Below are positions 23,431 to 61,933 of a DNA stretch of 64,000 nucleotides, piece by piece. Numbering within the stretch: position 1 is the stretch's first letter; every line of letters starts with the position of its first letter. The DNA is taken from assembly GCF_017357405.1 (NCBI RefSeq), contig NZ_CP071598.1, positions 186,001-250,000 of the forward strand, in the 5' to 3' direction. The notes under the pieces are model-generated. The model had not been told where the DNA came from. It saw only the letters and a list, made by a program, of their open reading frames with translations, and did no database searches. The DNA comes from Halomontanus rarus (GTDB lineage: Archaea; Halobacteriota; Halobacteria; Halobacteriales; Natrialbaceae). The position numbers and the translations under genes were made by a program.

Positions 23431-23470
23431 AAAATCTTTATATCCTATGGTAATGGATTGATACGTGATG
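23431..23470 (+). promoter_or_regulatory. Conserved promoter/start block of lyase-like gene A
   Basis: The 40 bases ending at the start codon match those before paralogue C (48827-48866) at 35 positions, while the DNA further upstream is unrelated. It holds TTTATATC at 23437-23444 as TATA box. The conserved CCTATGGTAATGGATTGATAC after it covers the transcription start and is a good place for a repressor. Confidence 0.6.
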
Positions 23471-26400
23471 GCACAGCGCAATCAGCGCAGTAGTGACGAG
23501 ACTGACAGACGCCTCGACGGTGACCAAAACTGGTGCGGCGACGAGTTGTGTGACGTACGCGACCTCACGACGAATTTCGACGTTTCACGCCGCTCGATGT
23601 TGGCGGCGACGGGGGCGGGAATCCTCGGTGGGCTGGTGTCGGGAAGCGGGACCGTCGCGGCCCAGGACGACGACCGCTACCACCGCAAGACCCGACCGAC
23701 GATCTACACGGAGGCTATGCGCGAGAACGCTCGGCAGAACGTCGACAGGTACGACTGGGCGGCCAGTCAGCGCGACGCGGCCGTCGAGGGAGCCGACGAG
23801 CTGTTGGATCGATACGCGGGCGACGCGGCCGATCCCGACCTCGACGCCCTGTGGAGTCTGGTGACGTCCCAGAAGATCCCGCGCGGCGGCGGCCTCGCGT
23901 ACGAACGCGACATTCTCGGCGGGTACTCTGATCCGGGGACCGACCGACTGTGGAAGATCGAGACGACGGTCGACGACCCCCACGGTGACGGGAACCTGGT
24001 CGTGCCGACCAACGACTTCGCGGCCTACCGGGAGAGCGGGCTAGACGACCGCGGGATGTTCGACCCGGACCTCGCCGACGATCAGTACCTGGTCAACGAG
24101 GAGCACCCCGAGATGGGCGAGGGCTGGGGCGTCGACGACGGCTGGGGTTGGATCGACGAAAACGACGACCTCGGTGGTGGGGCGGGCAACCGGTGGAACT
24201 TCGTCGCCTACTACAACCACTGGTTCATCTGGCGGCCCGGCGGCGTCCGTCGAATTCTGGAAGCGCTGGCAGAGGCGTATCTGTTGAGCGGTGAGACGAC
24301 GTACGCCGTGGCCGGACTGACTATGCTCGACCGGATCGCCGACATCTACCCCGAGATGTCGACTCATCCCTACCGGCAGCCGGCGTTCTTCAACAACCAC
24401 GGCGGTCGACAGACCGGTCGCATCATCGGGAGCGGCTGGGAGGGGAACCTCGTCCGGTCTCTCTTGCCCACCTACGACGCGTTCTTCCCCGCGCTGGACG
24501 ATCGGGAGGTCGCCGACGAGGTGACGGCTTTCCTCGACGGGAAGACCGACGAGTACCCCGATCTCTCCGGGAAAGGGTCGGTCGTGGCGCTCCGCGAGAA
24601 CGTCGAGGAGAACTACGTCCAAGAGATCCTGACCGCTGCGAAGAACTCGGATATCTCCCCGGACAGGGGTCAGCGCCCCGCCGTCGCCGTCTCGGCGCGA
24701 GTCCAGGACGACACTCGCGACGGGGGCTACACCCGCGAAGCGCTCGAGTGGCTCTTCCAGCCCGGTGGCGAACGATTTACCGGCGATCAGTGGGACGAAG
24801 AGCCCGAGAACTGGAACACGACCGGCGGCGAGGTCCTCAAGCAGGTGGTCGACAACTGCGACCGCGACGGCTACTGGCACGAATCCGCGCAGCTGTACAA
24901 CCGAATCCAGATGAGTTCGATTCGGCAGGTTGCCGAGACGTTGAAGGGCTACGACGCGTTCGACGGCGCGGACCTCTACCAGCATCCGAAGATGCAGCAG
25001 GCACTCGCCATCAACTCGGATCTCGTCTTACTCGACACGCTGGCCCCGCAGATCGGCGACACCCACGCGTACAGCGGCGACCTCTGGTTGAGCGCGAGCG
25101 GAATCAGCGACGGGTACGAAGTGACCGGTTCCGACGAGTTCGCCCAGCTGTGGCACTTCGTGAACGGCTACTCCACGGCGGGGATCCGCGGTTCGATATT
25201 CGACACCGATCCGGACGATCTCGGCGACGAGATACAGGCGGTCATCGACGCCGAAGGACCCCTCGACCTGCCGAGCCAGAACCTCGCGGGTTACGGATTC
25301 GCTGCGCTTCGCGACGGCGAGAACTACCTGAACCGGTCGTTCGGGACGACCTACGACACCTCCGAGCTGTTCGTCGACGCCTCCGCGGGTGTCGACGACA
25401 GCTTCGACGAAGCCATCCAGTTCGAAGCGACCGGGGAGGGCGAGTGGTGGACGTTCGAGTTCGACGCCGAGGAGGCCGGCGAGTACGAACTGGAGATCGA
25501 AACGCTGTTCGTCTCGAGTTACGGCACCTACGAACTCTTCATCAACGGCGAATCGATCGATACCGTCGACTTCTACGCCGAGAGCTTCACCCGCGATACC
25601 GTCTCGTTCGTGGCGGACCTGCAGGCGGGGACCAACGAGATGCGCTGGGAGGTCGTCGGCGCGAACGACGACTCGAGCAACTACAAAATGGCCCTGTACA
25701 ACCTCACGCTGTTCGACGAGGAAGACAGGGAGATCCGCGACGGGATCGCCGAACAGGGCAACAGCAAGCGGGCGTTCTGGCTGTACTACGGCCGCACCGG
25801 ATTCGGCGGCGGCGGTACCGCCCACGGTCACCTCGACACGCTGAACCTCGGCGTGGCGGCCCACGGCATGGAACTCGCGCGCGATCTGGGCTATCCCGAT
25901 CAGACGGGAACTTACCCGCCGCGACAGTTCTTCACGGAGAACACGATCAGCCACAACACCGTCACGGTCGACGAGCGGGGACAGATAGAGCGGTGGGTCG
26001 GAACACCGCGACACTTCGACGGCAGTAGCGACCGCGTGAACCTGATCGACGTCGAGGCGTCCGACAGTTACGAGGTCACCGACGAGTACCGCCGGACGAC
26101 GGCGATGATCACCGTCGACGAGGAACACTCCTACGCGGTCGACTTCTTCCGCGTCGCGGGCGGCGACGATCACCGCTTCAGCTTCCACGGGACGAAAGCG
26201 ACCGTCGCGACGGAGGGGCTCGACCTCGAGGCCCAGGAGTCGGGGACCCTCGCCGGTCCGGACGTCGCTTTCGGCGACGACGACTACGACGACGCGATGT
26301 ACGACGACTCGATCGAACGCACCCCAGGGTCGGGTCTGAACTACTTCGACAACGTCGAGCGCGACGACGATCCCGCCGAGAAAGTCGTGATCGACTGGGA

Positions 26401-27265
26401 CGTCGAGGACCAGTTCGACGTCCGCGACGACGACGCCGAGGGGGTCCACATGCGACTGACCTCGTTCGGGGACTTCGACGAAGTCGAACTGGCGGACGGA
26501 TATCCGCCCAAGAGTTCCAGTAGCGCCCCGACCGAACCGTCGATCCGGTACGCGTTCCTCAACCGGAGCGGATCGGATCTCGACAGTACGTTCGTCTCGA
26601 CGATCGAACACTACGAGGACGAGCGCGCCGTCGAGTCGGTCGAAGAGGTCCACGTCGAGGGCGGCGACGGCCACGCGCTCAGGGTGGAACTCGCGACCGG
26701 CCGTACGGATTACGTCGTCTGCGCCTTCGACGACGGCGGAACGCTGACCGTCGACGATCGGTTCCAGATCCAGGGCTTCGTCGGCGTCGTCTCCTACGAG
26801 GACGGGAGCGACGACCCGACGTTCGCCTACCTCAACGACGGAACACTGGTGCGACCGTTGAACGGGGCGCCGCTCATCCAGCGCCCGTACGGCCACCTCA
26901 CGGGAACCGTGCGGGACTTCACGAGAGAGATGTCGCTCGAAAACGACCTCGACGTCCGGCTGCACGGTCACCAGCACGACGCCGTCGACCTCGACGATCA
27001 GGGGGCCACTAGCGCCGAATTCGTCTACGTCGACGCCGACGGCCCGGCGGGCGAGCGAAGCCAGCGGGCCAACGGTAACGGCGCCTACCCGATCGAGGGC
27101 ATCGACCTCGTACAGGGCAACCGGGTGCGAATCGACGTCGGCGAGAAGACGTTCACGCGGGACTTCGTCGACCCCGACCAGCTCGAAGCGGGCGGGTACA
27201 ACTACATCATCGACGAAGACGACGAAGTACAGATCCCGGTCGCCGAGACCTGGTCGGCCGAGTAA
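23468..27265 (+). CDS. Giant Tat-exported heparinase II/III-like protein A
   Basis: A 1265-residue protein. After an unusually long n-region comes a Tat signal (FDVSRRSML, R41-R42; cleavage after about GTVAAQ). There is then a helical domain of about 550 residues, a beta-sandwich module near 630-748 (DDSFDEAIQF to YNLTLFDEE), and the heparinase II/III-type C-terminal region with AHGHLDTLNLGVAAHGMEL (about 781) and ISHNTVTVDERGQ (about 828). The rest, to the end, is beta-rich. Family enzymes eliminate uronic acid-containing polysaccharides such as heparin-like glycosaminoglycans or alginate. A substrate cannot be read. It is leaderless with a strong promoter. Paralogues lie at 38269 and 48864. 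Confidence 0.85.
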   Translation: MAQRNQRSSDETDRRLDGDQNWCGDELCDVRDLTTNFDVSRRSMLAATGAGILGGLVSGSGTVAAQDDDRYHRKTRPTIYTEAMRENARQNVDRYDWAASQRDAAVEGADELLDRYAGDAADPDLDALWSLVTSQKIPRGGGLAYERDILGGYSDPGTDRLWKIETTVDDPHGDGNLVVPTNDFAAYRESGLDDRGMFDPDLADDQYLVNEEHPEMGEGWGVDDGWGWIDENDDLGGGAGNRWNFVAYYNHWFIWRPGGVRRILEALAEAYLLSGETTYAVAGLTMLDRIADIYPEMSTHPYRQPAFFNNHGGRQTGRIIGSGWEGNLVRSLLPTYDAFFPALDDREVADEVTAFLDGKTDEYPDLSGKGSVVALRENVEENYVQEILTAAKNSDISPDRGQRPAVAVSARVQDDTRDGGYTREALEWLFQPGGERFTGDQWDEEPENWNTTGGEVLKQVVDNCDRDGYWHESAQLYNRIQMSSIRQVAETLKGYDAFDGADLYQHPKMQQALAINSDLVLLDTLAPQIGDTHAYSGDLWLSASGISDGYEVTGSDEFAQLWHFVNGYSTAGIRGSIFDTDPDDLGDEIQAVIDAEGPLDLPSQNLAGYGFAALRDGENYLNRSFGTTYDTSELFVDASAGVDDSFDEAIQFEATGEGEWWTFEFDAEEAGEYELEIETLFVSSYGTYELFINGESIDTVDFYAESFTRDTVSFVADLQAGTNEMRWEVVGANDDSSNYKMALYNLTLFDEEDREIRDGIAEQGNSKRAFWLYYGRTGFGGGGTAHGHLDTLNLGVAAHGMELARDLGYPDQTGTYPPRQFFTENTISHNTVTVDERGQIERWVGTPRHFDGSSDRVNLIDVEASDSYEVTDEYRRTTAMITVDEEHSYAVDFFRVAGGDDHRFSFHGTKATVATEGLDLEAQESGTLAGPDVAFGDDDYDDAMYDDSIERTPGSGLNYFDNVERDDDPAEKVVIDWDVEDQFDVRDDDAEGVHMRLTSFGDFDEVELADGYPPKSSSSAPTEPSIRYAFLNRSGSDLDSTFVSTIEHYEDERAVESVEEVHVEGGDGHALRVELATGRTDYVVCAFDDGGTLTVDDRFQIQGFVGVVSYEDGSDDPTFAYLNDGTLVRPLNGAPLIQRPYGHLTGTVRDFTREMSLENDLDVRLHGHQHDAVDLDDQGATSAEFVYVDADGPAGERSQRANGNGAYPIEGIDLVQGNRVRIDVGEKTFTRDFVDPDQLEAGGYNYIIDEDDEVQIPVAETWSAE

Positions 27266-27462: not shown

Positions 27463-29242
27463 ATGACATCGACCGGGTTACACGTCGTTCCTCGACCGCG
27501 CAGGGTCGATACGGGATCGGGAGCCGTCCGGTTCGACGCTCCGATCGTGATCGGTATGACCGAGGCGGACGCGCCAGCAGTCGTCTCCCTGTTCGAAACG
27601 CATCTCGAGCGAGAGACGAACGAACGGATCGTTCGAGGCGACGATGACGGCGATTCCGACGTGCGGTTGGTACTCGAGGATCGTCCCGCCGAGGAGTTCG
27701 ACGGTCGGGAGGGATACGTACTCGAAGCGGACGGCGACGCCGATACGGTCACGATTCGCGCGGAGACCGCCGACGGCCTGCGATACGGCTGTCAGACGTT
27801 CGTCACCGGGCTCGCGTTTCGGACCTGGAACGGCCGCGACGGCGACGGTATCGGTGACGGTGACCGCGACCGGTGGGCGTTCCCGGACTGTACGATCCAC
27901 GACTGGTCGGAGACGAGCTGGCGCGGGTTCTTGCTCGACCCGGCGTGGGGATTCCTGTCGATCGATCGCGTAAAGCGACGGATCGATCAGGCCGCTCGAG
28001 CGAAGCTGAACCGACTCCGACTCCGTCTGCTCGACGACGAGGGGTACGCCCTCGAGTCCGAGGCGTTTCCCGAGCTGACCCGTGGTTCCGACGGGTCGAC
28101 ACGTCCGGCGTACTCGCCCGACGACGTGGCGGAACTGGTCGACTACGCGGCCCGGCGCGGGATCGAGATTGTCCCCCGAAATCAACGTCCCCTCCCACGC
28201 CGAACACGTCCTCGAGACGTATCCGGAGCTCCGGTGTACCGTCGAGAACGGTGACGCCAGCGAGCGGACGCTGTGCATCGGCTCGGACGAGACGCTCGAG
28301 TTCGTCGAGACGCTGTTCGACGAAGTCGTCGATCGCTTCCCGTTCTCGTTCGATGTCGTCCACGTCGGCGGCGACGATTGGGAGATGCACGGCCACTCGT
28401 GGGACGAGTGCGCCGACTGTCGAGAGAAGATGGCCGAGGACGGCTCGGAGACGGTCACCGAGCACTTCTACGCGTTCGTCCGTCACCTCCATCGGTTTCT
28501 CGACGAACGCGATCGGCGGACGATGATGTGGAACGACCAGATCGACATCTCCGAGTCGCCGGACCTCCCCAGGGACGTGCTGATCCAGTTCTGGCGCGTC
28601 GCCGCGCCGGGTCGCGGACCGGTGGAGGGGTGTAGCTTAGAGCGGTTCCTCGAGGAGGGATTCGACGTCGTCAACTCGTCCGTCCGCGCCGCTTTCGTCA
28701 GGGGGTGGATCTCCGAGGAGTACCTGCACGGCTGGGCGCCGAGACGGCGCCCGACGGTTCCCGAGGGCCGCGAGTCGCAGGTGCGGGGCGGCGAACTCCT
28801 CGCTTTCGAGCCCTCGAACGAGAGGCGACGCGATTACTTCGAACGGGCGCTTCCGTCCGCGATTCCGATCTTCGCCGATCGGCTCTGGAATCCGGAGCCG
28901 ATCGACGGCGGGCCCGCGTTCGGCCGAACGCTGACCAGACACGCGCTCGGACCGTACGTCCCGAACGGATTCGACGCGTACCGCGAACTCGGGGGGACGA
29001 TCCTCCCGACGAACTGGAAACGATCCGGACAGGGTCCGCCGGCCCACGCGAACAACTCGTTGGGCGATCGAACGCCGCGAGAGGCGTCGGCCGCGTATCG
29101 GGCTGCGATCGAATCGATTTCGACGCTGCGCGACTCGGACGAAACGGTCTACCCCGAAACGGCGACGGCGTACGTCGACTGTCTCGAGTGGCTCCTCGAA
29201 GTCGCCGACCGTGAGCGGCGAGGCGTCCTCGATCGGCCCTGA
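27463..29242 (+). pseudogene. Decayed GH20 beta-N-acetylhexosaminidase (frameshifted)
   Basis: Two overlapping frames (27463-28254 and 28082-29242) together match the whole of the intact GH20 at 36272. They are broken by one extra C: a run of five C at 28173-28177 where the intact copy has four (GIEIVPE). Independently, conserved GH20 residues have changed: the substrate-binding Arg of LDPARGF is Trp (27946-27948), both His of RLHLHLLDD are Arg, and the catalytic Asp-Glu of HVGGDEW is Asp-Asp (GAT at 28376-28378). A simple sequencing error would not explain the substitutions. It lies between lyase-like gene A and the sulfatase. Confidence 0.85.
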
Positions 29243-29341
29243 GCGAGACGAAAGCGTCGGCCGTCTCCGAAACCTGTCTGCGAACGAAGGACCGCGCGAA
29301 CCGGTGACGAGCGATCGGATCAGTAGACACTTGGTGATCGT

Positions 29342-29359
29342 TCCGGTATGTCTACCGGA
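29342..29359. promoter_or_regulatory. Inverted repeat at the sulfatase start codon
   Basis: TCCGGTA (29342-29348) and TACCGGA (29353-29359) form a perfect 7-base inverted repeat that abuts and includes the A of the ATG. It could be an operator or a start-occluding hairpin. Confidence 0.35.
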
Positions 29360-30792
29360 TGACGGAACGACCGAACGTACTACTGATCACGACGGACCAG
29401 CACCGCGGCGACTCGATCGGCGCCGATCCGGCCTGTCCGTCGGATCGCCACGGCGATCCGCTCGTTCACACGCCGAATCTCAACGCGCTCGTCCGAGACG
29501 GCGCGATCTTCACTCGGGCGTACACCCCGGCACCATCGTCGATTCCCGCACGCCGGTGTCTCTGGACGGGGAAACGACCTGCGAGCGTCGATGCGACGAC
29601 GTACCACGGCCGAGAGTGGGAGTTCGAGTCGACGCTTCCGGGGCTTCTCCGGGAGGCAGGTTACCAGACCCGCCTCACCGGAAAGACCCACTCGATTCCG
29701 GCGGGAAATCACTTCGGCTTCGAAGAGACGGTATTACACAGCGGCCTGTCCGGCCTCGAGGACGATTACTCGAGGTGGCTCGCGCGCGAGCGCGACGGGG
29801 CCGACGAGATCGGTCACGGCGTCGGTCGAAACTCGTGGGACGCGCGGCCGTGGCACCTCTCCGAACGGGACCACCCGACGAATTGGACGACCGACCGGGC
29901 GATCGAGTTCTTCGAGAACCGCGATCCGACGAGGCCCTTCTTCCACTACGTGTCGTACGTCCGGCCCCACCAGCCGTACGATCCGCCGCAGGTGTACTGG
30001 GACATGTACGCCGACCGCGACATCGCCGATCCACCCGTCGGCGAGTGGGCGAAGGAGGTGTACGGCGATCGCGTCCCGGACCACCCCGGGCTGAACGCGT
30101 GGCTCGCGGACCTGCCGACCGAGGTCGTTCGCCGCGCTCGCATCGGCTACTACGGCTCGGTCACGCACGTCGATCACCAGCTCAACCGGTTGCTCCGAGC
30201 GCTCGGTCGAACCGACGGCGGCGAGAACACGCTGGTGATCTTCGCCTCCGATCACGGAGACATGCTCGGCGATCACAACCTGTGGCGAAAGACGTTCGCG
30301 TACGAAGGATCCGCGAGAGTACCGCTGCTGGTGCGGTTCGCACCCGACATGGAGTACGAGAGCGGGCGCGTAATCGATCGTCCGGTCGGCCTCGAGGACG
30401 TCCTACCGACGGTTCTCGACGCGACCGGCGTCGACGTGCCGACGTCGGTCGAGGGCACCTCCCTGATCGACCTCCTGTCCGACGACCGGCGGACCGACTG
30501 GCGCTCGACGTACCACGGTGAACACGGCCCGTGTTACGACCCCGAGACGGGCACACAGTTTCTCGTGGACGAGACGACGAAGTACGTCTGGCACCCGACG
30601 ACCGGCAAGGAACTCCTCTTCGACCTCGAGGCCGATCCGTACGAGACGCGGAACCTCGCTGCCGAGGACGCCCGAGCCGACGAACTCGAGCGATGGCGCG
30701 ACGACCTGATCGATCGGCTCGAGGGACGGCCCGAAGGGTTCAGCGACGGCGAGCGACTCCGAACGGTGACGGCGGAAGAGGGGTGGGGATAG
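29359..30792 (+). CDS. Sulfatase with serine-type formylglycine motif
   Basis: A 477-residue alkaline-phosphatase-superfamily sulfatase without a signal peptide, so probably cytoplasmic. Metal ligands are in LLITTDQHRGD near the N-terminus and FASDHGDMLGDH in the middle. The residue converted to formylglycine is in S-I-P-A-R (S61 to R65), continuing to a T-G at 70-71. It is therefore the serine type, with Ala instead of the usual Ser at the fourth position. Serine-type enzymes need a radical-SAM maturase (anSME), which is not in the window. A downstream FTRAY... fold and YHGEHGP near the C-terminus complete the domain. The context suggests desulfation of oligosaccharides. An overlapping 4-codon frame (ATG at 29348) ends in ATGA. 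Confidence 0.9.
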   Translation: MTERPNVLLITTDQHRGDSIGADPACPSDRHGDPLVHTPNLNALVRDGAIFTRAYTPAPSSIPARRCLWTGKRPASVDATTYHGREWEFESTLPGLLREAGYQTRLTGKTHSIPAGNHFGFEETVLHSGLSGLEDDYSRWLARERDGADEIGHGVGRNSWDARPWHLSERDHPTNWTTDRAIEFFENRDPTRPFFHYVSYVRPHQPYDPPQVYWDMYADRDIADPPVGEWAKEVYGDRVPDHPGLNAWLADLPTEVVRRARIGYYGSVTHVDHQLNRLLRALGRTDGGENTLVIFASDHGDMLGDHNLWRKTFAYEGSARVPLLVRFAPDMEYESGRVIDRPVGLEDVLPTVLDATGVDVPTSVEGTSLIDLLSDDRRTDWRSTYHGEHGPCYDPETGTQFLVDETTKYVWHPTTGKELLFDLEADPYETRNLAAEDARADELERWRDDLIDRLEGRPEGFSDGERLRTVTAEEGWG

Positions 30793-30937: not shown

Positions 30938-32587
30938 TCACTCGACCGGCAGCGACTCGCGCGCGTTCGCCTCGCGCCCGAGCAACTCGACCAGCGCCTC
31001 TCCGGCCGTCTCCGGGAACGGCGCGGGCAAGCCGAGACGGTCCTGTGCATATGTCGCGACGTACGCGACGTCGTCGGGGAGTTGCTCGAACTCGTTCGGG
31101 AGTCCGAGCGACACAACGACGACCGGCAACTCCCCCGAGAGGGTTTCGACGACTCGTCGCTGTCCGTCCGGAAACGCCTCTCGAGCGTACGTCGTGACGA
31201 CGGCGACGTCGACGTCGTCGGCGACGGACCGGAGCGTCTCGAGGGAGGTGTCGATCGATTCCGGCTCCATCGCGGGTTTCGGATCGGCGAGCGTTCTGAC
31301 GTCGCCCGGCGCGAGCGAACAACTGACCACGTCGCCGAACGCCGCGTCGAAGTGCGGTTCGAGCGCGTGAACGCCCCTGATCCCGGTCAGGAGGACGGAC
31401 GTCTCCGACTCCAGCGGGAAGACGTCGTCGTTGCCGAGGACGGTGAACGACCGTTCGTACGCGTCCCTCGCGATCGATTCGTTCCCGTCGCTCGCGAACG
31501 TTTCGAGCGTCTCGAGGGGCTCTACGTACCGGCGTTCGGTCAGGTCGTATTCGTCTTTCAGCGCCAGAACCCGTTCGACGGAGTCGTCGATCCGCGACTC
31601 CGACAGCTCTCCGGACTCGACCGCGTCGACGATCGCGTCCCGCGTCTCGAGGAGGTCCTCGCCGGGAACGTACCCGGTGAGAACGAGGTCGGCACCGGCG
31701 TCGACGGCCCGAACCGCGGCCTCGCCGACGCCGTAGTTGTCGGCGATGGCGTCCATCATCATCGCGTCGGTGACGACGACGCCCTCGAAGCCGAGTTCGT
31801 CCCGGAGCAGATCCGTGAGGATCGTCGGGGAGAGGGTCGCCGGCCGGTCCGGATCGAGACAGTCGACGACGATGTGAGAGGTCATGATGCAGTCGACGCC
31901 CCGCTCGATCATCGCCTCGAACGGCGGCAGGTGAACGCGCTCGAGGGTTTCCCGGTCGTACGTGACGTGCGGTAGCTCAAGGTGAGAGTCGAGTTCGGTG
32001 TCGCCGTGCCCGGGGAAGTGCTTCGCGACTGCGACTTGCTCTTCCGCGTGGATCCCCTCGAGCGCCGCCGTCGCGTACTCGGTGACCGTCTCCGGATCGC
32101 CGCCCGGCGAGCGGACGCCGATCACCGGATTGTCGGGGTTGGTGTTGACGTCGACGACGGGCTGGTGGTTCATGTCGAGTCCCATCGCCACCATCTCCCG
32201 CGCGACGGCCGCCGAGACGACCCTGGCGAGGTCGATATCGCCGGCCGCCGTTCGACCCATGAGCGCCGGGTACGCACGGGCTCCGTGCCCGACGATGTCG
32301 ACGGCACCGTACTCGCAGTCACAGGAGAGTAACAGCGGAATTCCGTGAGCGGTTGCTTCGGCCCACCGTTGAAGCTGATTCGCGTACTGCGCCATGAAGT
32401 GCGGGGTCGCCGCGTGGTTGCCGTACACGCGGACCGCTCCCGGTCGGATTTCCTCGAGCACCGTTCGCATCTCCTCGTCGGGCCACCCGGTCTCGGTCTC
32501 GAAGTTGCCGAGCCCGATTCCCACGTGCAGCAACTGTCCGACCTTCTCTTCTACGGACAACTCTTTGAGTATCGTCGGATCTTCCAT
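30938..32587 (-). CDS. GH3 beta-N-acetylhexosaminidase (NagZ-like)
   Basis: The ATG at 32587 (MEDPTILKEL) is chosen over an upstream start at 32704; a TATA-like element (32612-32618) sits 28 bases before it. The protein has 549 residues. The signature KHFPGHGDTELDSH (residues 189-202) includes the Asp/His pair that acts as acid-base in the NagZ group, and the nucleophile is D274 in VVTDAM. A second domain follows (LLTGIRGVHALEPHFDAAFG). NagZ-type GH3 release N-acetylhexosamines from oligosaccharides inside the cell. It converges with the sulfatase. Confidence 0.92.
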   Translation of the reverse strand: MEDPTILKELSVEEKVGQLLHVGIGLGNFETETGWPDEEMRTVLEEIRPGAVRVYGNHAATPHFMAQYANQLQRWAEATAHGIPLLLSCDCEYGAVDIVGHGARAYPALMGRTAAGDIDLARVVSAAVAREMVAMGLDMNHQPVVDVNTNPDNPVIGVRSPGGDPETVTEYATAALEGIHAEEQVAVAKHFPGHGDTELDSHLELPHVTYDRETLERVHLPPFEAMIERGVDCIMTSHIVVDCLDPDRPATLSPTILTDLLRDELGFEGVVVTDAMMMDAIADNYGVGEAAVRAVDAGADLVLTGYVPGEDLLETRDAIVDAVESGELSESRIDDSVERVLALKDEYDLTERRYVEPLETLETFASDGNESIARDAYERSFTVLGNDDVFPLESETSVLLTGIRGVHALEPHFDAAFGDVVSCSLAPGDVRTLADPKPAMEPESIDTSLETLRSVADDVDVAVVTTYAREAFPDGQRRVVETLSGELPVVVVSLGLPNEFEQLPDDVAYVATYAQDRLGLPAPFPETAGEALVELLGREANARESLPVE

Positions 32588-38243: not shown

Positions 38244-38268
38244 ATGTTAGGCGGTGTCGTGGGGAACG

Positions 38269-46929: not shown

Positions 46930-47003
46930 TGTGACTCGAGGATTGGCGCGATACACTAACCTTCTTTCGGTCGGTTCGAGGGCCAGGCGTCGGAAGCGAA
47001 ATC

Positions 47004-48826: not shown

Positions 48827-48866
48827 AAAATCTTTATCTCCTGTGGTAATGGGTTGATACACGATG
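48827..48866 (+). promoter_or_regulatory. Conserved promoter/start block of lyase-like gene C
   Basis: Matches the same block of paralogue A at 35 of 40 positions, including TTTATCTC as TATA box at 48833-48840 and TGGTAATGGGTTGATAC before the ATG. Confidence 0.6.
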
Positions 48867-52787: not shown

Positions 52788-53525
52788 TCACCGAACCGTC
52801 GACCCCCGCTCGCGCTCGCGCTCGCTCTCGCCGCGCTCGCTCTCGCCGCGCTCGCACCTGACTGCGAACTCGAGGAAGTTGTCGAACAGTCCCTTTGCGT
52901 CCATCGCGAGGTCGACGTTCGCCGCCGTAATTCCGTCGAGCACGGCGCGAATCCGCTCCTCGGGCAGGTCCTTTCCCCGCGTCACCAGTTCCGCGGTGTC
53001 CCGGTCGTACTCGGGGTGAAACTGAACGCCGAAGACCCGCCCCGCGCGAAAGCCCTGGATCGAGTAGTCGTTCTCGGCGATCGACTCGGCGCCGGGCGGG
53101 AGTCGGACCACCTCGTCGGAGTGGGTCGTGAACGCCAGAAATCGCTCGGAGAGTCCCGACAGTAATTCCGAGTCGCCGACGCGCTCGATCTCCCGGTACC
53201 CGAGTTCGTACTCGCCCATGTCCCGGACCTCGCCGCCGAGGGCGTGCGCCAGCAACTGGTGGCCGAAACAGACGCCGAGCACCGGCAGGTCCCGGTCGAC
53301 CGCACCGTCGACCCACTCGAGCAGCGGCGGGATCCACGGTTCGTCGCCGTAGACCGACGCGCCGGAGCCGCTGACGATCGCGGCGTCGTACTCGTATCCG
53401 TCGGGGAGGTCCCCCTCGTTCGCGGCGAACGATCGGACGTCGGCATCTACGTCTCGCTCGAAATTCCGTCTCGTCGCGTCGTCGTTGTAGGAGGCGTTCA
53501 GCAACGCCACTCGTAGCTCCTGCAT
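52788..53525 (-). CDS. Class I glutamine amidotransferase
   Basis: A 245-residue GATase-1 protein. The nucleophile elbow is VLGVCFGHQ (C86) and the His/Glu of the triad are in FGVQFHPEYD (H170, E172). Such free-standing enzymes release ammonia from glutamine or hydrolyse gamma-glutamyl groups. The last 20 residues are a tail of Glu, Arg and Ser repeats produced by a 15-base tandem repeat in the DNA, which is probably a strain-specific expansion and not essential. It stands alone. Confidence 0.9.
   Translation of the reverse strand: MQELRVALLNASYNDDATRRNFERDVDADVRSFAANEGDLPDGYEYDAAIVSGSGASVYGDEPWIPPLLEWVDGAVDRDLPVLGVCFGHQLLAHALGGEVRDMGEYELGYREIERVGDSELLSGLSERFLAFTTHSDEVVRLPPGAESIAENDYSIQGFRAGRVFGVQFHPEYDRDTAELVTRGKDLPEERIRAVLDGITAANVDLAMDAKGLFDNFLEFAVRCERGESERGESERERERGSTVR
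52806..52856 (-). repeat. 15-base tandem repeat at the amidotransferase C-terminus
   Basis: Copies of GCGCTCGCTCTCGCC within the coding frame give the repeated residues GESER. Confidence 0.6.
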
Positions 53526-53596: not shown

Positions 53597-54364
53597 TTAC
53601 TCGAGGAACGATCGAACGTATCGTAGATCGGCCTCGATCGCCTCTCGATAGGGTCGTTCGTCGGTCACGAACTCGACGTTCGCGTAGCCGTCGAACCCCC
53701 GTCCGAAGGGCTCGAGGATCGCCTCGAGATCGTAGTACGACTCCGAGAGCGGCGCCCGCTCCCGCGCGGTTCGTTCGCGCGTCGTCTGCAGGTGAAGCTG
53801 GTTCGAAAGCGGTGCGAGCGCCTCGGCTTCACGCTCGAGTTCGTCCGCCGGGATCGAGAACCCCGGCTGGTAGTTGAGACGACAGCGCTCGTCGTCGATC
53901 GTCTCGATCAGTTTCTTCGCGCCTTCCAGAGTGTGCGTCAGCGTGTTGTTGTGCTTCTCGACGGTCACCTCGAGCCCGTCGTCGGCCGCCCGCTCGGTCA
54001 CCCGCTCGAGGTCGGCGACGACCCGGTCCCAGTGGTCCTGCTCGTGATCGCCGTATTCCTGGCTCCCGGCCCAGATACGAACGATCTCCGTTCCGAGCCG
54101 ATCCGCGATCGCGAGTTCGTGCTCGAGGTCGTCGTCGAACGCGTCGGAGCCACACCGGAGGTAGGAGCCGTACGAGGCGATCTCGAGGCCCTGTTCGTCG
54201 GCCGCCTCGGCGATCCGCTCGCAGGTCATCTCGGAGCCGTCGCCGACGTGATCCTGCCCCCAGATCTCGACGCCGTCGTAGCCGACCGCACCCGCCAGCT
54301 CGAGCACCTCCTCGACGGACCGATCCTTGGCGGAGATGGTACAGAGGCCGACGTCTATCGTCAT
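53597..54364 (-). CDS. Sugar-phosphate isomerase/epimerase (TIM barrel), second copy
   Basis: A 255-residue AP endonuclease 2-type barrel with candidate metal residues in GLEVTVEKHNNTL (Glu), GYDGVEIWGQDHVGD, LHLQTTRERT and VEFVTDERPY. Its start overlaps the stop of the aldo/keto reductase gene by four bases (ATGA), so the two are coupled. This is the second such isomerase in the window. The substrate is unknown. Confidence 0.85.
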   Translation of the reverse strand: MTIDVGLCTISAKDRSVEEVLELAGAVGYDGVEIWGQDHVGDGSEMTCERIAEAADEQGLEIASYGSYLRCGSDAFDDDLEHELAIADRLGTEIVRIWAGSQEYGDHEQDHWDRVVADLERVTERAADDGLEVTVEKHNNTLTHTLEGAKKLIETIDDERCRLNYQPGFSIPADELEREAEALAPLSNQLHLQTTRERTARERAPLSESYYDLEAILEPFGRGFDGYANVEFVTDERPYREAIEADLRYVRSFLE

Positions 54365-55332
54365 CGGTCACCCTCCGTCTCTTCGGCGTACGCGTCGGTG
54401 ATTCGCCCCAGCTGTTCGTCGGTCAACGAGAGCTCCATCGCACCGGCGTTCTCCTCGAGTTGCTCGACCGAGCGAGCGCCGACGATCGGCACGCACGTGA
54501 ACCGCTCGCGATCGATACACCAGCGCAGGGCGACCTGTGCGGGCGTCGCGCCCGCTTCCCGCGCGACCGATTGCACCGCTTCGAGGACGCGCCACTGGCG
54601 CTCGTCGAACCGCCCGTTCCAGTCGTTCAAGTCTCCCCGGGAGCCCTTCGGCGGGTCGCCGTCGCGTTCGTACTTCCCGGTGAGGAAGCCACCTTCCAGC
54701 GGCGAGTACGGACAGACCGCGAGGTTCTGGTCGGCACAGACGTCCAGATAGTCTTCGACCTCCTCGCGGTAGGCGGCGTTGAACCGTGGCTGGGTAATCT
54801 CGAAGCGCTCGAGGTTCTCGAGATCGCTCCGCCACAGGGCCTTCGTCAGCTTCCAGGCGGCACCCGACGACGCCGCGAGGTACCGGACGGTCCCCTCCCG
54901 GACGAGGTCGTCGAGCGTCCGAAGCGTCTCCCGGATCGGCGTCTCGTCGTCGAAGCGGTGGATGTAGTAGACGTCGAGGTAGTCCGTGTCGAGGCGCTCG
55001 AGCGTGTCCTGAATTTCCGATCGAATCGCCTTCCGCGAGAGGGTTCGCTCCGGAACGCCCCGACTGCGCCACCAGACCTTGCTCGCGATCACGACGTCCT
55101 CGCGGTCGTGATCGGCGAGCCACTCGCCGATCCACTCCTCGCTCTTCCCGCCGCCGTAGCTGTTCGCCGTGTCGACGAAGTTGATCCCCCGATCCCACGC
55201 CGCGTCCAGCAGTTCGTGTGCGGTCTCGCGGTCCGTCTCGAGCGTGCCGTTTGACTCCTTGCCGAACCGCCAGGTGCCGAAACACAGCGGCGACACCGTC
55301 AGTCCGGTAGAGCCGAGTCGTCGATACTCCAT
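54361..55332 (-). CDS. Aldo/keto reductase
   Basis: A 323-residue TIM-barrel NADPH-dependent reductase. The tetrad is present: Asp and Tyr in FVDTANSYGGGKSEEW, Lys in VVIASKVWWRS, and His in VYYIHRFDDE. It begins MEYRRLGSTGLTVSPLCFG, as in the oxidoreductase group that acts on sugars and keto compounds. The C-terminal IVGARSVEQLEENAGAM binds the cofactor phosphate. Co-translated with the isomerase downstream. Could oxidise or reduce sugars of the cluster. Confidence 0.93.
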   Translation of the reverse strand: MEYRRLGSTGLTVSPLCFGTWRFGKESNGTLETDRETAHELLDAAWDRGINFVDTANSYGGGKSEEWIGEWLADHDREDVVIASKVWWRSRGVPERTLSRKAIRSEIQDTLERLDTDYLDVYYIHRFDDETPIRETLRTLDDLVREGTVRYLAASSGAAWKLTKALWRSDLENLERFEITQPRFNAAYREEVEDYLDVCADQNLAVCPYSPLEGGFLTGKYERDGDPPKGSRGDLNDWNGRFDERQWRVLEAVQSVAREAGATPAQVALRWCIDRERFTCVPIVGARSVEQLEENAGAMELSLTDEQLGRITDAYAEETEGDR

Positions 55333-55452: not shown

Positions 55453-56454
55453 TCAGTCGAGACTCACCGCCCGCCCTCGCTCGCTCGACTCGTAGATCGC
55501 GTCGATCACGCGTTGCACGACGAGCGCTTCCTCGACCGTCTCACTCGGCGGGTCGCGCGTCCCGGCGACGGCCTCGAGGAACGCCCGGTCCTCGGCGAGG
55601 TGCATGTCCTCGGCCTCGACGGCGATCGCGTCGACGTCCTCGTCGGCGTCCGCGCTGACGTACGTCACTTCGGAGTCGGTGACCTCGAACGCGAGCCCGC
55701 CCTCCGTGCCGCGGACGACGCACTCTCTCGAGGGTGCAGCCGTGCCGTGCCAGGACGTCTCCACGGAGATCGTCCGGCCGTCCGCACAGCGGAGCAGGGC
55801 CGTCGCGGAGTCGTCGACGTCGTACTCGCCGAACTCCGAGCGCGTCCTGCCGCTGACTTCGACCACGGTCGGGTAGTCGAGCACGTGCAAGGCGAGGTCG
55901 ATGATGTGGACGCCGAGATCCATCAGGACGCCGCCGCCGGCGAGCGATTCGTCGGTGAACCAGCCGCGGCCGCCGCCGGGGACGCCGCCGCGTCGGAGAT
56001 AGTCGACGCTCACGTGCGAGAGCGAGCCGAGGCGCCCCTCCTCTCGAAGGTCGATCGCCCGCTCCGTCGCGTTCGAGTAGCGCATCGTGAAGCCGACCGT
56101 ACAGAACCCCTCGGCGTCGCGGGCGGCCGCGGCGATCCGCTCTGCGCTCTCGACCGAGTGCGCCAGGGGCTTCTCGAGGAGGACGTCCACGCCCGCCTCG
56201 AGCGCGTCGATCGCGATCTCCTCGTGGATTCGATTCGGGACGCCGACGATCACCGCGTCGACGCCGGACTCGAGTAGTTCGCGGTGGTCGGGATAGGCCT
56301 CCGCGTCGAACTCCTCGATGAACGCCTCGCGTGCGTCCTCGTCCAGATCCGCGCCGGCGAGCGTCGCACCGAGTTCGTCGAGTCGCGTCGCGTGTATTCT
56401 GCCGATCGTTCCGAGTCCGACGATGCCGATACGGATGCCTGTCTCCTGACTCAT
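55453..56454 (-). CDS. Gfo/Idh/MocA family oxidoreductase
   Basis: A 333-residue dehydrogenase; the start is the ATG at 56454 (MSQETGIRIGIVG), and an open frame further upstream is non-coding. The Rossmann motif GIVGLGTIGRIHATRL and the hallmark LLEKPLAHS are clear, followed by the C-terminal Gfo fold (GGVLMDLGVHIIDLALHVLD). Such enzymes oxidise sugars and inositols with NAD(P), or hydrolyse glycosidic bonds by transient oxidation (GH109). It is one of three of this family here. Confidence 0.9.
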   Translation of the reverse strand: MSQETGIRIGIVGLGTIGRIHATRLDELGATLAGADLDEDAREAFIEEFDAEAYPDHRELLESGVDAVIVGVPNRIHEEIAIDALEAGVDVLLEKPLAHSVESAERIAAAARDAEGFCTVGFTMRYSNATERAIDLREEGRLGSLSHVSVDYLRRGGVPGGGRGWFTDESLAGGGVLMDLGVHIIDLALHVLDYPTVVEVSGRTRSEFGEYDVDDSATALLRCADGRTISVETSWHGTAAPSRECVVRGTEGGLAFEVTDSEVTYVSADADEDVDAIAVEAEDMHLAEDRAFLEAVAGTRDPPSETVEEALVVQRVIDAIYESSERGRAVSLD

Positions 56455-56512
56455 TACCGTCCAATCATACTGTGAGTACAAAAACGTACGTCCTCCAGAA
56501 CGGCTCACCGGC

Positions 56513-58153: not shown

Positions 58154-58300
58154 GCCGGTATTGTCGACTCGCGTACTATAAATCCAGTTGCTTCCGCGAG
58201 GTCGCGGGTCGCCGGGGTCAGGTCCGCGATCGAACCGGCACGAGCGGACGAATCGAACGCGTCGTCCGGACGGGAAGAACGCGACCCTCGTACGTGACGG

Positions 58301-60409
58301 TCACAGCCTCATCCAGTCTCCGTCGACCGCGCGGTACCAGTCGTCGGTCGTCGTGTCGCGGACGAGGGCGTTCGACTGTTCGGCGAAGGGAGCGTACCCG
58401 TGCCACTCCCCCTCGTCCGACGGATCGCCCTCGTTCGTACCGCGCCCGTTGTTCAGCAGCCGAGGGACGGAACGACTGGAAATTGCGGGCCCGGAGACGG
58501 GTGCGTCCGGAACGTTCAGGTAGTACAGCGCCATGTTGTAGTCACTGGACTCCTCGTTCTTCCCGACGGCCTCGAAGCGCACCGTGTTCGTCCCCTCCGC
58601 CAACTCGAGGACGTACGTGACGGTGTCGCGGGTGAAGCTTTCGGCGTAGAAGTCGATCGTATCGACCCGCTCGCCGTTGACGGACAGCTCGTAAGTACCG
58701 TAACTCGAGACGAACAGCGTCTCGAGTTCGACCTCGTACTCGCCGGCCTCGTCGATATCGAACTCGAACGTCCACCACTCGTCGGGGCCGTCCGGTTCGA
58801 ACTGGATCGCCTCGGGGAAGCTGTCGTCGACCGGCGCCGTCGCCTCGACGAACAGGTCGCTGGTGTCGTACCTGAGTCCGGGCGGGTCGTTCGCGCCCAC
58901 CAGCGTATTGTCTCGAAGCCGGGCGGTATCGACGCCCTCGTTGATGACGGTCGCGTCGTGGATCGTGTTGGCCACGATATCGACTCCCTGCAGATCGCTC
59001 TCGGCGCCGTCCCCGCCGAAGTGCGGCTCGATCGCTCCGTCGACGAACGTCGCGTCGTCGTGAGCGGGGTCGAAGACGTTGTTGAGCAACCTGACGTCGG
59101 AGACCGACGTCAGTTCGTGGAGCTCGTTCTGGAGGAACGTGCGATCGCGACTGAAGCAATCGGCGATGGTCAGCCGATCGACGACGCCCGGTGTTCCGTA
59201 CCCGATCAGCCTGATCGAACCGTCCTGGCGTCCGTCTCGGTTCTGCTGGCCCCGAATCGTCAGGTTGGTTATCCGGTCGCGGATCGCGACGAGCAGTTGG
59301 CTGACGACGTTGTTTCGGATCGTCACGTTGTCGAACGGCCCGTCCGCGATCAGCGAGATCATCCGCGCGTCGTTGTCCTCGATGAGACCGTCCGACGCCC
59401 CGTCGCCACCCGAGTGAACGGTGATGTACGCGTCAGTTTTGCACTCGCGAATGACGTACTCGTCGAGGTAGGGTGCGTCGGAGGGAGTCGACTGATTTCG
59501 AACGTCGCCGGCGATCTGGATCCCCGTCCCCGGGATATCGTAGGCCTCGCAGCCGATGATCTTGGGGTTTCGAGTCGAACCGTAGCCGCGGTTGGCGATC
59601 CCGTCGTAGCCGACGCGGCGGGCGACACAGCGTCGCTGTATCCCGCCTTCGGATTCCGTGATGTAGACGCCGAACTGGCGGGTGCCGTCCGCGCTCCCGT
59701 AGTCGTACATGACGTCCTCGACGGTGACCCCCTCCTGTCGGGGCGAAACGCAGTTGTGAAACCACACGGGTGCGTGGCTCAGTTCATCCCAGTCGACGTT
59801 CTCGAACGAGACGTACCCGCCTTCCACGGCGACGGCCTCGTTGCCGCCGTCGTGATCGGCGTTCGTGATCAGCGTCCGGTACGTTCTGTTGCCCGTCTCG
59901 ATTTCGGCGAGTTCGTGATCCGACGGCGGAACGAGCCGGACCCCCTCGTCGATTGTGAGCGTCAGGTCGTCGGGGAGGAAGACGGTCGTCGTCGGTTCGA
60001 AGACCCCGTTCCCGTGAACGACGACCTCGCGTTCGGCCTCGTCTGCGGCGGCATCGATCTCCTCCTGGAGCCGATCGTCCCAGTCGCCGGCGTGGACGTG
60101 GCGAACGTCGTTCACATTCTCGGCGGTGATCGTTCGAGCGGTGATCGATTCGACGGGTGCAGCGTCTCCCAGTCGGGCCGTCGACCCCCGCTCGCCGCTA
60201 TGGTCGTGGTCTCCGGGGGCGAACGGTGGCCCGTTCCCGTCGCCGTCCTCTTCGTCACCGTCCTCCTCGCCGCCGTCCGTTCGTGCGGTCGCGCTCCCGG
60301 AGGCGAGTACGCCCACCGCCCCGGCGGCGAGCACGCCGCGCCGTGTGAGCGGCAGTGTGCGGTCCCCAGAACTGTCTCCGAAGCCGTGCGTTCGGCTGTC
60401 TTCGGTCAT
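58301..60409 (-). CDS. Tat-exported beta-helix protein with the shared beta-sandwich module
   Basis: A 702-residue exported protein. The Tat motif is TRRGVLAAG (R23-R24), followed by a Gly/Asp-rich linker. Residues 110-520 are right-handed parallel beta-helix repeats (IRECKTDAYITVHSGG, VTIRNNVVSQLLVAI, VDIVANTIHDATVI), the fold of many polysaccharide lyases and glycosidases. Residues 526-635 are the beta-sandwich module also found in all three heparinase-like proteins (DDSFPEAIQFE to YYLNVPDAP). A short tail ends DWYRAVDGDWMRL. It probably binds and cuts the same polymer; the catalytic residues were not identified. Confidence 0.85.
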   Translation of the reverse strand: MTEDSRTHGFGDSSGDRTLPLTRRGVLAAGAVGVLASGSATARTDGGEEDGDEEDGDGNGPPFAPGDHDHSGERGSTARLGDAAPVESITARTITAENVNDVRHVHAGDWDDRLQEEIDAAADEAEREVVVHGNGVFEPTTTVFLPDDLTLTIDEGVRLVPPSDHELAEIETGNRTYRTLITNADHDGGNEAVAVEGGYVSFENVDWDELSHAPVWFHNCVSPRQEGVTVEDVMYDYGSADGTRQFGVYITESEGGIQRRCVARRVGYDGIANRGYGSTRNPKIIGCEAYDIPGTGIQIAGDVRNQSTPSDAPYLDEYVIRECKTDAYITVHSGGDGASDGLIEDNDARMISLIADGPFDNVTIRNNVVSQLLVAIRDRITNLTIRGQQNRDGRQDGSIRLIGYGTPGVVDRLTIADCFSRDRTFLQNELHELTSVSDVRLLNNVFDPAHDDATFVDGAIEPHFGGDGAESDLQGVDIVANTIHDATVINEGVDTARLRDNTLVGANDPPGLRYDTSDLFVEATAPVDDSFPEAIQFEPDGPDEWWTFEFDIDEAGEYEVELETLFVSSYGTYELSVNGERVDTIDFYAESFTRDTVTYVLELAEGTNTVRFEAVGKNEESSDYNMALYYLNVPDAPVSGPAISSRSVPRLLNNGRGTNEGDPSDEGEWHGYAPFAEQSNALVRDTTTDDWYRAVDGDWMRL

Positions 60410-60883
60410 CGTGATAAACCCGAGTTAGATACCATTTCCGATGGTAATAAATAATGTTGAAAGTATCGGACAGTATCGATGGTCAAAAATATCATCTCCA
60501 GTGAGATTGTGTGAAACTGTCACCCTCGCCGCCGAACCGTCCGACGCGTAACACTCCGAGAACGACTACTCGAGGAGTTCTCCGCCGGCGATCCCCCGTT
60601 CGCCTGCGACCGCGGAAAACAGGTGCGTTCGGTCGTCCTCCTCGAAGATGGCCGGGGCGCGGAGCGCTCGAACGGGCTCGTCGACACTGCCGCCCGCGGA
60701 GGTCTCGAGCGGACGGTCTCCACCTTCGTACGGGCGGTCGACCCAGAGCACCGTCTCGGGCGGAGACAGACCAGGACGCCGCGTTTCGTCCAGTCGGGAA
60801 AGATACATCACCGTCGTCATCACGCGCTCGGGTCGATCGCCCCGTCGCGTCGGTCGACGTTCATAGCGAACCCAGTCTCTCCG
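60410..60883. other. Intergenic region with a gene remnant
   Basis: Contains the upstream region of the beta-helix gene (TTTATTACC on the minus strand near 60446-60454 as TATA-like element, then CCATCGGAAATGG) and the remnant at 60566-60823. Confidence 0.4.
60566..60823 (-). pseudogene. Remnant of a glycoside hydrolase C-terminus
   Basis: An 85-residue frame that reads like the end of a five-bladed-propeller glycosidase: VLWVDRPYEGGDRPLE, VRALRAPAIFEEDDRTHLF and SAVAGERGIAGGELLE. Comparable proteins, from memory, carry RDPAIFEEDGRTYLLYSVAGE here; the altered residues and lost length suggest decay. It has no start region and no promoter. The attribution rests on resemblance only. Confidence 0.4.
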
Positions 60884-61933
60884 TTAGGCGTCCGGCGGCA
60901 GGTCTCCCGACTCGATCATCGCCTCGAGCGGATTGTCGTCGATCTCGAGCGGAAGCGACACGCGGCCGCGACGGCGGGCCGACTCCCAGACGCCGAAGAC
61001 GACCTCGGTGGCCCCGAGCGCCCGCTCGCCGCTGACGATCGGCTCCTCGTTGTTCGCGAGCGCGTCGACGACGACCGCTATCGCCTCGTCCTGAGCGGGG
61101 TCACCGCCGACCTCGACGGTCACCCACTCGCCCGATTCGTCCGTCTTGATTCGGTAGCTGTCACCGAGCTGGAACTCGATCGCACCCTCGGTGCCGACGA
61201 ATCGGTTCGTCTGAGCGCCGACCGCGTCCATCCCAGCCCCGGTCGAACAGACCGCGTGTACGCCGGACTCGTACTCCCACATGCCGAGGCTCTGGACCTC
61301 GGCTGGCATGTTCGTGTACCAGACGTGCTCCTCGGGGTAGTCGATCTGTCCGAGGACCCACTCGACGGGTTCGTCGTCCATCACGTAGTTCGCGAGGTCG
61401 ATGTGGTGCAGCCCCGTCTGGAGCAAGTCCTGACGGCCGATCTCGATCCGCTCGAGATCGCCGATCGCACCGTCCTCGATAATCGCCTTGATCTCGGCTG
61501 CGGCGTCGCTACAGCGGTTCTGAAGGTTGATCGTCAACTGGACGTCCGCGGCGTCGCACACCTCGACGAGTCGCCGACTCCCCTCGAACGTCGGCGCCAT
61601 CGGCTTCTCGCAGTGAACCGCCTGGACGCCATCGTGGGTCGCACAGGTTTCGACCAGGTCGACGTGGGTCGACGGCGGCGTGCAGATGCTGACGATATCG
61701 GGTGTGGCGGTGTCGAGCATCTCCTCGAGGTCGGTGAAGACGCGGTCGCCGAGGTCGAACCCCTCGCCGAAGGCCTCGGCGTGCTCGGAGACGACGTCCG
61801 CACACGCGTCGACCCGACAGCCCTCGACAGCGCGATAACTTCGGGCGTGACGGTATCCCATCGAGTAGCCGTCGTGGTCCGACGCGTCGGGGTGGGGTCC
61901 CGTCCCGACGATTCCGACAGTGTAGTCGCTCAT
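60884..61933 (-). CDS. Gfo/Idh/MocA family oxidoreductase, second copy
   Basis: A 349-residue protein from the ATG at 61933 (MSDYTVGIVGTG). The nucleotide-binding GIVGTGPHPDAS has an unusual insertion, HCEKPMAPTFEGS is the conserved EKP motif, and TGLHHIDLANYV has the likely catalytic His residues. The C-terminal half is a Gfo beta-sheet domain. The reaction is oxidation of a sugar or cyclitol. It is 107 bases upstream of the transporter gene's end, on the same strand. Confidence 0.9.
   Translation of the reverse strand: MSDYTVGIVGTGPHPDASDHDGYSMGYRHARSYRAVEGCRVDACADVVSEHAEAFGEGFDLGDRVFTDLEEMLDTATPDIVSICTPPSTHVDLVETCATHDGVQAVHCEKPMAPTFEGSRRLVEVCDAADVQLTINLQNRCSDAAAEIKAIIEDGAIGDLERIEIGRQDLLQTGLHHIDLANYVMDDEPVEWVLGQIDYPEEHVWYTNMPAEVQSLGMWEYESGVHAVCSTGAGMDAVGAQTNRFVGTEGAIEFQLGDSYRIKTDESGEWVTVEVGGDPAQDEAIAVVVDALANNEEPIVSGERALGATEVVFGVWESARRRGRVSLPLEIDDNPLEAMIESGDLPPDA

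Follow-up and report, generated by a model that had tools for sequence, protein, structure and literature searches.

The window analysed here (the whole stretch of 64,000 nucleotides, G000:C2:186001-250000, on a 1.14-Mb contig of a two-contig genome of 5.17 Mb) carries a haloarchaeal gene cluster built around three genes for exported proteins of the heparinase superfamily, H1 to H3. This locus is probably a conserved haloarchaeal utilization system for an acidic N-acetylhexosamine polysaccharide, the amino sugar of which is burnt oxidatively. It is real and conserved, ordinary in kind, with parts that are unusual. Gene families, linkage and absences are reported as found; the reactions, the substrate and the order of the steps are predicted from them, and the labels "glycosaminoglycan", "sulfated" and "active lyase" are ones that we infer. 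The central genes are:

23465..27265, plus strand: H1, heparinase superfamily, R-type, predicted to be exported by twin-arginine translocation (Tat); from Pfam, alignment, tree and motif
38254..41997, plus strand: H2, heparinase superfamily, S-type, predicted Tat-exported; CBM35-like module at 40114-40464
48864..52673, plus strand: H3, heparinase superfamily, R-type, predicted Tat-exported; from Pfam, alignment, tree and motif

Conservation of the locus

In a family-level sample of 125 genomes from 29 genera (matches at E <= 1e-20, up to five candidates scored per genome) H homologues occur in 12 genomes belonging to seven genera. Genes of glycoside hydrolase (GH) family 20 are present in 18 of the 125, namely all 12 with H and 6 of the 113 without it (Fisher p about 1e-12, with no correction for kinship), and in every one of the 12 a GH20 gene and an H gene share a contig and stand within 10 kb of each other. 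Thirty window proteins were compared with stretches of the 11 other H genomes, the counts that follow including the window (n = 12). Opp-type ATPase and permease genes were found in 11 of the loci, G099 having only binding proteins, and a DgaE-like gene likewise in 11 (not G120). Gene order varies between genera, which indicates that the linkage has outlasted rearrangement. The preliminary description of this DNA had proposed one utilization locus for an N-acetylhexosamine polymer; the linkage kept across genera and the set of DgaE-, D-aminoacylase- and PIG-L-like genes support this, and the scattering of homologues without co-occurrence that it had named as a counter-indication was not seen. 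The plasmid of Halomontanus rarus TS33 (NZ_CP119797.1) matches the window at 93% over 12 kb, with 98.5% protein identity for H2, which points to a close relative in Natrialbaceae.

Some of the census weighs against this reading. The stretches fetched for G041, G047, G089, G093 and G094 showed no OngB-like or PIG-L gene, and that for G120 no OngB-like or DgaE gene; the absences in G089 and G041 are weak because their stretches are partial (only to contig position 175000 and only 5001 to 25000, respectively). Among 66 bacterial loci with H homologues none has DgaE, OngB, FAH or PIG-L genes, and GH20 occurs in two, a sulfatase in two and MocA in four. As a guide to the substrate these bacterial loci, many on short contigs, proved uninformative, as did two Paenibacillus loci. 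A Pfam census of 72 hand-chosen proteins from 204 neighbouring bacterial frames gave MATE and MocA as the commonest families, at 4 each; the amidohydrolase, D-serine-dehydratase and GlcNAc-epimerase families had 2 each, among the 25 listed of 78 families matched.

Heparinase-superfamily proteins

H1, H2 and H3, about 1,250 amino acids long and 65-75% identical in pairs, score 35.2, 31.3 and 31.7 bits with PF07940 [Hepar_II_III_C] (cut-off 24), and each bears a twin-arginine SRRSML motif, in agreement with the earlier claim of three exported heparinase II/III-like proteins. A profile of 39 H homologues matched polysaccharide lyase (PL) structures in the PDB: PL17 AlgL17 (2e-20), Uly1040 (1e-15; PL40 according to the title of its paper), and PL15 and heparinase III chains. 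The nearest families are thus the PL17 alginate lyases and PL40 ulvan lyases, and because the profile matches PL17, Uly1040, PL15 and heparinase III alike, the sequence does not indicate a glycosaminoglycan substrate.

Catalytic roles were assigned by analogy with Table 4 of PMC12088678. The presumed catalytic Tyr is kept in 39/39 aligned homologues and the first His in 38/39, and in the putative HxHxD metal site the second His is kept in 36/39 and the Asp in 33/39. The neutralizer, upstream of the Tyr, can be Asn or else Glu, Asp or Arg in the superfamily. Here the Asn of a GN.G motif is likely the neutralizer, an assignment made by motif and spacing and not by structure; it sits 60-86 residues before the Tyr, compared with 51-63 residues in the enzymes of that table. 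This Asn is kept in two paralogs in the same genome (C2:280 and 288 kb) and in 7/8 reference proteins; three bacterial rows (L027, L028, L030) have Asp in its place. In the H tree, from which L115-L118 were left out since no frame passed the motif filter (L117, the own copy at C2:288 kb, re-entered via L010), the presumed neutralizing Asn is lost from every locus-clade sequence examined. The column reads Asp in H1, Glu in H2 and Ser in H3, with an adjacent Arg in the R-type only. The R-type, [DSGAT]RG (H1 and H3), was found in 12/12 H genomes; the S-type, [EDAKG]SG (H2), in 9/12 among the matches listed, at most five candidates per genome. The H proteins therefore resemble PL17, PL15, PL12 and PL40 lyases in profile and in their Tyr, His and metal motifs, and differ from them in an inserted CBM35-like module of 117 amino acids, in replacement of the neutralizing Asn and in their length.

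The loss of this Asn from the locus clade counts against our interpretation, since lyase activity of H1-H3 is thereby not assured. They might instead be binding proteins or have been repurposed in some other way, with cutting of the polymer left to the beta-helix protein described below or done elsewhere. A PL17 enzyme lost its activity on the change N207L, and likewise when the Tyr at the corresponding position was changed (PMC4765187). We consider inactive proteins unlikely: Tyr, His and metal-site residues are still conserved, and the R-type has an adjacent Arg, the residue listed as neutralizer for a PL15 alginate lyase in PMC12088678. The Arg may stand in for the lost Asn in the R-type, while the S-type (H2) could be altered or inactive.

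Beyond the window PF07940 also matches at C2:280 kb, at C2:288 kb (where the score falls short of the cut-off) and at C2:674 kb. The region C2:279130-291264, some 30-40 kb past the window, holds two heparinase-superfamily genes with the ancestral Asn, with UxuA and MocA genes in the region and a second Opp-like importer farther along. H homologues occur many times over in metagenome-assembled genomes of ruminant-gut Oscillospiraceae (L031-L088), often in frames of 2,000-3,600 residues.

Beta-helix protein and importer

The genes that would act with H1-H3 outside the cell and in uptake are:

58301..60409, minus strand: beta-helix protein, predicted Tat-exported; from a Pfam match below cut-off, module alignment and motif
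14995..17445, plus strand: Opp-type ATPase, a fusion that reads as DppD-DppF-like; the open frame probably begins upstream of the true start; near H in relatives
18130-19215 and 19202-20314, plus strand: Opp-type permeases B and C; near H in relatives
21274..23181, plus strand: solute-binding protein SBP_bac_5 (PF00496, 71.7 bits)

The exported beta-helix protein of the preliminary description stands as regards its export signal, while its beta-helix match falls short of the Pfam cut-off (20 compared with 25.9 bits). Its residues 515-639 are 60-72% identical to the CBM35-like module inside H1-H3, and a module common to these proteins suggests one ligand. Eleven of the 39 aligned H homologues carry it, in eight haloarchaeal and three bacterial rows. 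The adjoining Opp-type importer had been described correctly, SBP_bac_5 and Opp genes standing next door.

We would suggest that the Tat-exported H proteins (R-type and usually S-type in each locus) and the beta-helix protein cut the polymer outside the cell, most likely by beta-elimination beside a uronic acid, and that the shared module holds them on the same polymer. The Opp-type ATP-binding cassette (ABC) system would import the oligosaccharides, to judge from its linkage.

Glycosidases, sulfatase and deacetylase

27463..29242, plus strand: GH20a, disrupted by a frameshift (frames 27463-28254 and 28082-29242); GGDD for GGDE
36272..38044, plus strand: GH20b, intact (PF00728, 210 bits); GGDE
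30938..32587, minus strand: NagZ-type GH3 (PF00933, 270 bits); KHFPGHG....DSH
29359..30792, plus strand: sulfatase family with a Ser-type SIPAR signature (PF00884, 154 bits; PRK13759, 501 > 481)
43512..44339, plus strand: PIG-L/CE14-like deacetylase (PF02585, 104 bits)
42192..43379, plus strand: putative glycoside-hydrolase-like barrel, DUF4015 (PF13200, 23.3 compared with 27 bits, below cut-off)

Two GH20 genes had been claimed, of which GH20b is intact. The D-E pair of GH20 enzymes is catalytic; GH20b joins it to the family domain, and GH20a does not. Compared with the uninterrupted H. rarus copy, GH20a carries an additional C within a run of C (about 28167-28182), which could be a homopolymer sequencing error; GGDD in place of GGDE is found in the window and in the H. 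rarus copy alike. A motif search found no twin-arginine motif in GH20b. The NagZ-like GH3 was confirmed by family score and by the KHFPGHG....DSH motif, which we take to be the marker of that type.

The sulfatase-family gene is also as described. FGE, the formylglycine-generating enzyme, needs a Cys-type sulfatase. The genome has an FGE homolog (PF03781, 266 bits); the window sulfatase is nevertheless Ser-type and the model TIGR03942 for anSME, the anaerobic sulfatase-maturating enzyme, has no match in the genome, and this weakens the case for desulfation here. Cys-type sulfatases occur in 7/12 H-genome stretches (G111, G112, G094, G093, G099, G047 and G041); those of G120 are Ser-type as in the window, and the signature search came up empty for three copies: that of G111 on L120, the partial one of G114 and the one from G355. 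The earlier idea of a sulfated substrate is hence weak for the window and better founded for its relatives.

Proposed amino sugar catabolism

The preliminary description, which had correctly recognized the PIG-L, isomerase and sugar oxidoreductase genes, omitted from its gene list an operon on the minus strand that we regard as central. It and the genes that might serve the same pathway are:

47004..48602, minus strand: D-aminoacylase/OngB-like amidohydrolase (PDB 1m7j, 2e-81; PpOngB 9kb1, 2e-63)
46189..46956, minus strand: fumarylacetoacetate-hydrolase (FAH) family (PF01557, 215 bits)
44972..46192, minus strand: DgaE-like pyridoxal-phosphate (PLP)-dependent ammonia lyase, SelA family (TIGR01437 below cut-off; PDB 7lc0, 6e-41)
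32939..33820, plus strand: short-chain dehydrogenase/reductase (SDR), glucose 1-dehydrogenase-like (PRK07231, 222 > 215 bits)
8541..8915, plus strand: RidA-type protein; shares 100% identity with the "Rid family detoxifying hydrolase" of H. rarus
12734..13681, minus strand: dihydrodipicolinate synthase (DHDPS) family, nearest to 5-dehydro-4-deoxyglucarate dehydratase models, below cut-offs (PRK03620, 162 compared with 278 bits)
54361..55332, minus strand: aldo/keto reductase (profile scan)
55453..56478, minus strand: GFO/IDH/MocA oxidoreductase 1 (profile scan)
60884..61951, minus strand: GFO/IDH/MocA oxidoreductase 2 (profile scan)
35138..36010, minus strand: xylose-isomerase-like TIM barrel 1 (profile scan)
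53597..54364, minus strand: xylose-isomerase-like TIM barrel 2 (profile scan)

The operon runs OngB-like, FAH, DgaE-like, the last overlapping FAH by 4 bases, and implies oxidation of an amino sugar and elimination of ammonia. The trio is found together in 6/12 H genomes (G000, G078, G099, G111, G112 and G114), and also in G161 and G176 (with a gap of more than 1 kb in G176), neither of which is among the 18 genomes with H in an order-level sample. That sample held 392 genomes (up to two H candidates scored per genome), its matches included 9 of the 12 family-level H genomes, and the H, DgaE and OngB counts are assumed from their equal size and shared genome labels to refer to the same 392. 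DgaE-like genes occur in 99 of them, 17/18 with H (not G412) compared with 82/374 without; at E <= 1e-100 OngB-like genes are present in 54, for the most part with no DgaE gene beside them. The DHDPS-family gene recurs in the stretches of G078, G099, G111, G112, G114 and G120. NagB (PF01182) was found in none of the 12 H genomes, the control matching in 9/14 genomes and glucosamine-6-phosphate deaminases outside PF01182 not having been sought.

Twenty DgaE loci hand-picked from the 99 DgaE genomes (mostly top-ranked, not random; one, G283, has an H homolog about 170 kb off on the same contig) contain a PIG-L-type gene in 16, RidA in 11 and a relative of zinc-type glucose dehydrogenase in 7. 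Annotated DgaE loci of Halorussus aquaticus and Haladaptatus caseinilyticus add glucose 1-dehydrogenase, a mandelate-racemase-type enzyme and an Opp-type importer; one of Haladaptatus QDMS2 has mannonate dehydratase, PIG-L and FAH, with a heparinase-type gene about 10 kb off. A second H. rarus locus combines DgaE-like, D-aminoacylase, GH20, sulfatase and PIG-L genes, with no heparinase annotated in the stretch.

Two scores weigh against this assignment. The DgaE-like protein lies below its family cut-offs (TIGR01437, 214.7 compared with 385.3; NF047797, 191.6 compared with 600), which by this measure makes it a relative and not a member, and the amidohydrolase is nearer to D-aminoacylases (277 bits) than to PpOngB (218). 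The latter reads GQDG for GNCG, with an Asp aligned to the Cys of the D-aminoacylase motif. On these grounds the operon might serve N-acyl-D-amino acids rather than sugars, as a separate system linked by chance. This appears quite improbable, as DgaE-like genes recur with PIG-L, RidA and sugar dehydrogenases, some of their loci have GH20 and sulfatases, and published chitin clusters show similar gene company (PMC12343721).

Inside the cell, we presume, GH20 and the NagZ-type GH3 would free N-acetylhexosamine, which would bypass NagB. Deacetylation could be by PIG-L, or by the OngB-like amidohydrolase after oxidation; C1 oxidation would fall to the SDR, for which it is a candidate function, or to MocA. 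The DgaE-like lyase with RidA might then strip ammonia to give a 2-keto-3-deoxy sugar acid, and acetate would enter through the nearby acetyl-CoA synthetase. A bolder version, in which a new subfamily of lyases without the customary neutralizing Asn is joined to a wholly unphosphorylated route (the sugar being oxidized and deacetylated, ammonia eliminated, and a diketo acid finally split to pyruvate by the FAH-family enzyme), seems to us rather unlikely. Two further activities were considered as possibilities: 3-keto-glycoside elimination by MocA together with the TIM barrels, and re-acetylation of the heparan kind by the GNAT listed below.

Possible uronate processing and nature of the polymer

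A uronic acid in the substrate is suggested indirectly by the presumed lyase fold and by genes for UxuA, a glucuronoyl-esterase-like protein and acetyl-CoA synthetase, which lie 1.6-28 kb beyond the window. The reported absence of GH88/GH105 holds for the window but not for the genome, in which PF07470 [GH88] scores 196 bits at C1:3653174 and 37 bits at C2:146090 (cut-off 26.6). Of the proposal that a uronyl hydrolase lies outside the window or is a new enzyme, the former is correct as to existence, although no such gene is linked to H, which counts against our interpretation: matches above cut-off occur in 4/12 H genomes and 19/113 others (p = 0.23). G089 and G093 have matches of about 21 bits, below the cut-off. 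GH88 thus exists in the genome but does not belong to the locus system. As the missing partner it was rejected, since G007, of the same genus, has it but no H, and 8/12 H genomes lack an above-cut-off match.

Degradation of a glycosaminoglycan proper, of chondroitin, hyaluronan or heparan type, with PL8 replaced by heparinase-type lyases, would accord with the N-acetylhexosamine enzymes, the sulfatase-family gene and the uronate genes nearby; in Haloarcula marina a DgaE homolog lies within 4 kb of a PL8 gene, with a sulfatase. Haloarchaea with plasmid loci for PL8, GH88 and GH154 have been shown to use hyaluronan and chondroitin sulfate A for growth (PMC13260240). On the other hand, GH88 is unlinked to H, the H profile is nearest to PL17 and PL40, the isolates of PMC13260240 did not use heparin and its authors were not convinced that the PL8 of H. 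marina was a hyaluronate lyase. The Pfam scan, which covered 27 proteins of the window, gave no PL8, and since GH88 is not in the window the pairing of PL8 with a co-located GH88 typical of such loci is missing. A glycosaminoglycan proper is in our opinion improbable.

Sulfated glycans with N-acetylhexosamine and uronic acid are known from haloarchaeal walls. The target could be a haloarchaeal or bacterial wall or capsule heteropolysaccharide scavenged from dead cells, and a GNAT gene and an importer of the oligopeptide family recur in H loci. The homologous locus on the plasmid of Natronococcus sp. CG52 (L228) includes genes for a gamma-glutamyltransferase and a prolyl-oligopeptidase-type protein, which hint at amino acids in the substrate. 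We regard this source as doubtful. An acidic N-acetylhexosamine polysaccharide, more broadly defined, remains the substrate that we favor.

Comparison with published systems

The claim that such a set is not described in haloarchaea has been overtaken: a published study describes PL8 loci in haloarchaea that grow on hyaluronan and on chondroitin sulfate (PMC13260240). Since PL8-based glycosaminoglycan use (2026) and the CE14-GDH-DgaE route (2025) are both in print, the present locus is a variant of published haloarchaeal systems. Like the Natronoarchaeum and Haloarcula H-hyl loci it is plasmid-borne, with a Tat-exported lyase (putative here), an ABC importer, a sulfatase-family gene and a presumed amino-sugar polymer as target. 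Unlike those PL8, GH88 and GH154 loci it has heparinase-superfamily proteins, GH20 and NagZ-type GH3 and no linked GH88, and where PMC13260240 proposes phosphorylated amino sugars leading to fructose 6-phosphate, the catabolism predicted here is DgaE/OngB-like.

The CE14-GDH-DGA route was predicted for chitin clusters of Natrarchaeobius (PMC12343721). Its PIG-L (43512), sugar dehydrogenase (32939) and DgaE homolog (44972) are clustered in the window, and the two share PIG-L/CE14, glucose dehydrogenase, a DgaE homolog, RutC (RidA-type), IclR, and GH3 and/or GH20. The Natrarchaeobius clusters differ in their chitin substrate, GH18 and an assumed phosphorylation step, and the passages of PMC12343721 available do not mention heparinase-type proteins or an OngB-like-FAH pair for them.

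The ong pathway of Pseudoalteromonas, with OngB, fold-type III OngC and RidA-family OngD (PMC9537276, PMC12017989), much like the route predicted here, uses a D-aminoacylase-fold deacetylase, PLP-dependent ammonia elimination to 2-keto-3-deoxygluconate (KDG) and a RidA-family protein. In contrast to OngC, however, the PLP enzyme of the window belongs to the SelA/DgaE family, so it is not an OngC, and the amidohydrolase scores nearer to D-aminoacylases than to the ong OngB. In the open-licence literature searched, outside which most subscription papers fall, we found no heparinase-type haloarchaeal locus described.

The locus thus offers a conserved archaeal system for an amino-sugar polymer, distinct from the PL8 type and open to testing. 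It connects archaeal glycan use with two enzymes, one like D-aminoacylases and one a DgaE-like lyase, supplies a group of heparinase-superfamily proteins in which nature has replaced a residue regarded as essential, and bears on the polymers that haloarchaea recycle in brines.

Further genes of the locus and flanks

33887..35056, minus strand: GNAT acetyltransferase, in 11/12 H loci (G089 stretch partial)
52788..53525, minus strand: class I glutamine-amidotransferase-like protein (PF00117, 79.6 bits)

A SufS-SufU-like fusion (Aminotran_5 and NifU_N; 56513-58153) lies inside the locus and also in those of H. rarus and Natrononativus amylolyticus. In H. rarus an Amidohydro_2 gene (L157:39301-40194) stands between the SufS and beta-helix genes; it gave no tblastn match in the window or in flanks L007-L011. 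Three IclR-like regulators with near-identical starts (NPVQAVQRTLEIVDVL-type), at C2:261902, C2:273825 and window position 10146, are spaced across a larger catabolic region.

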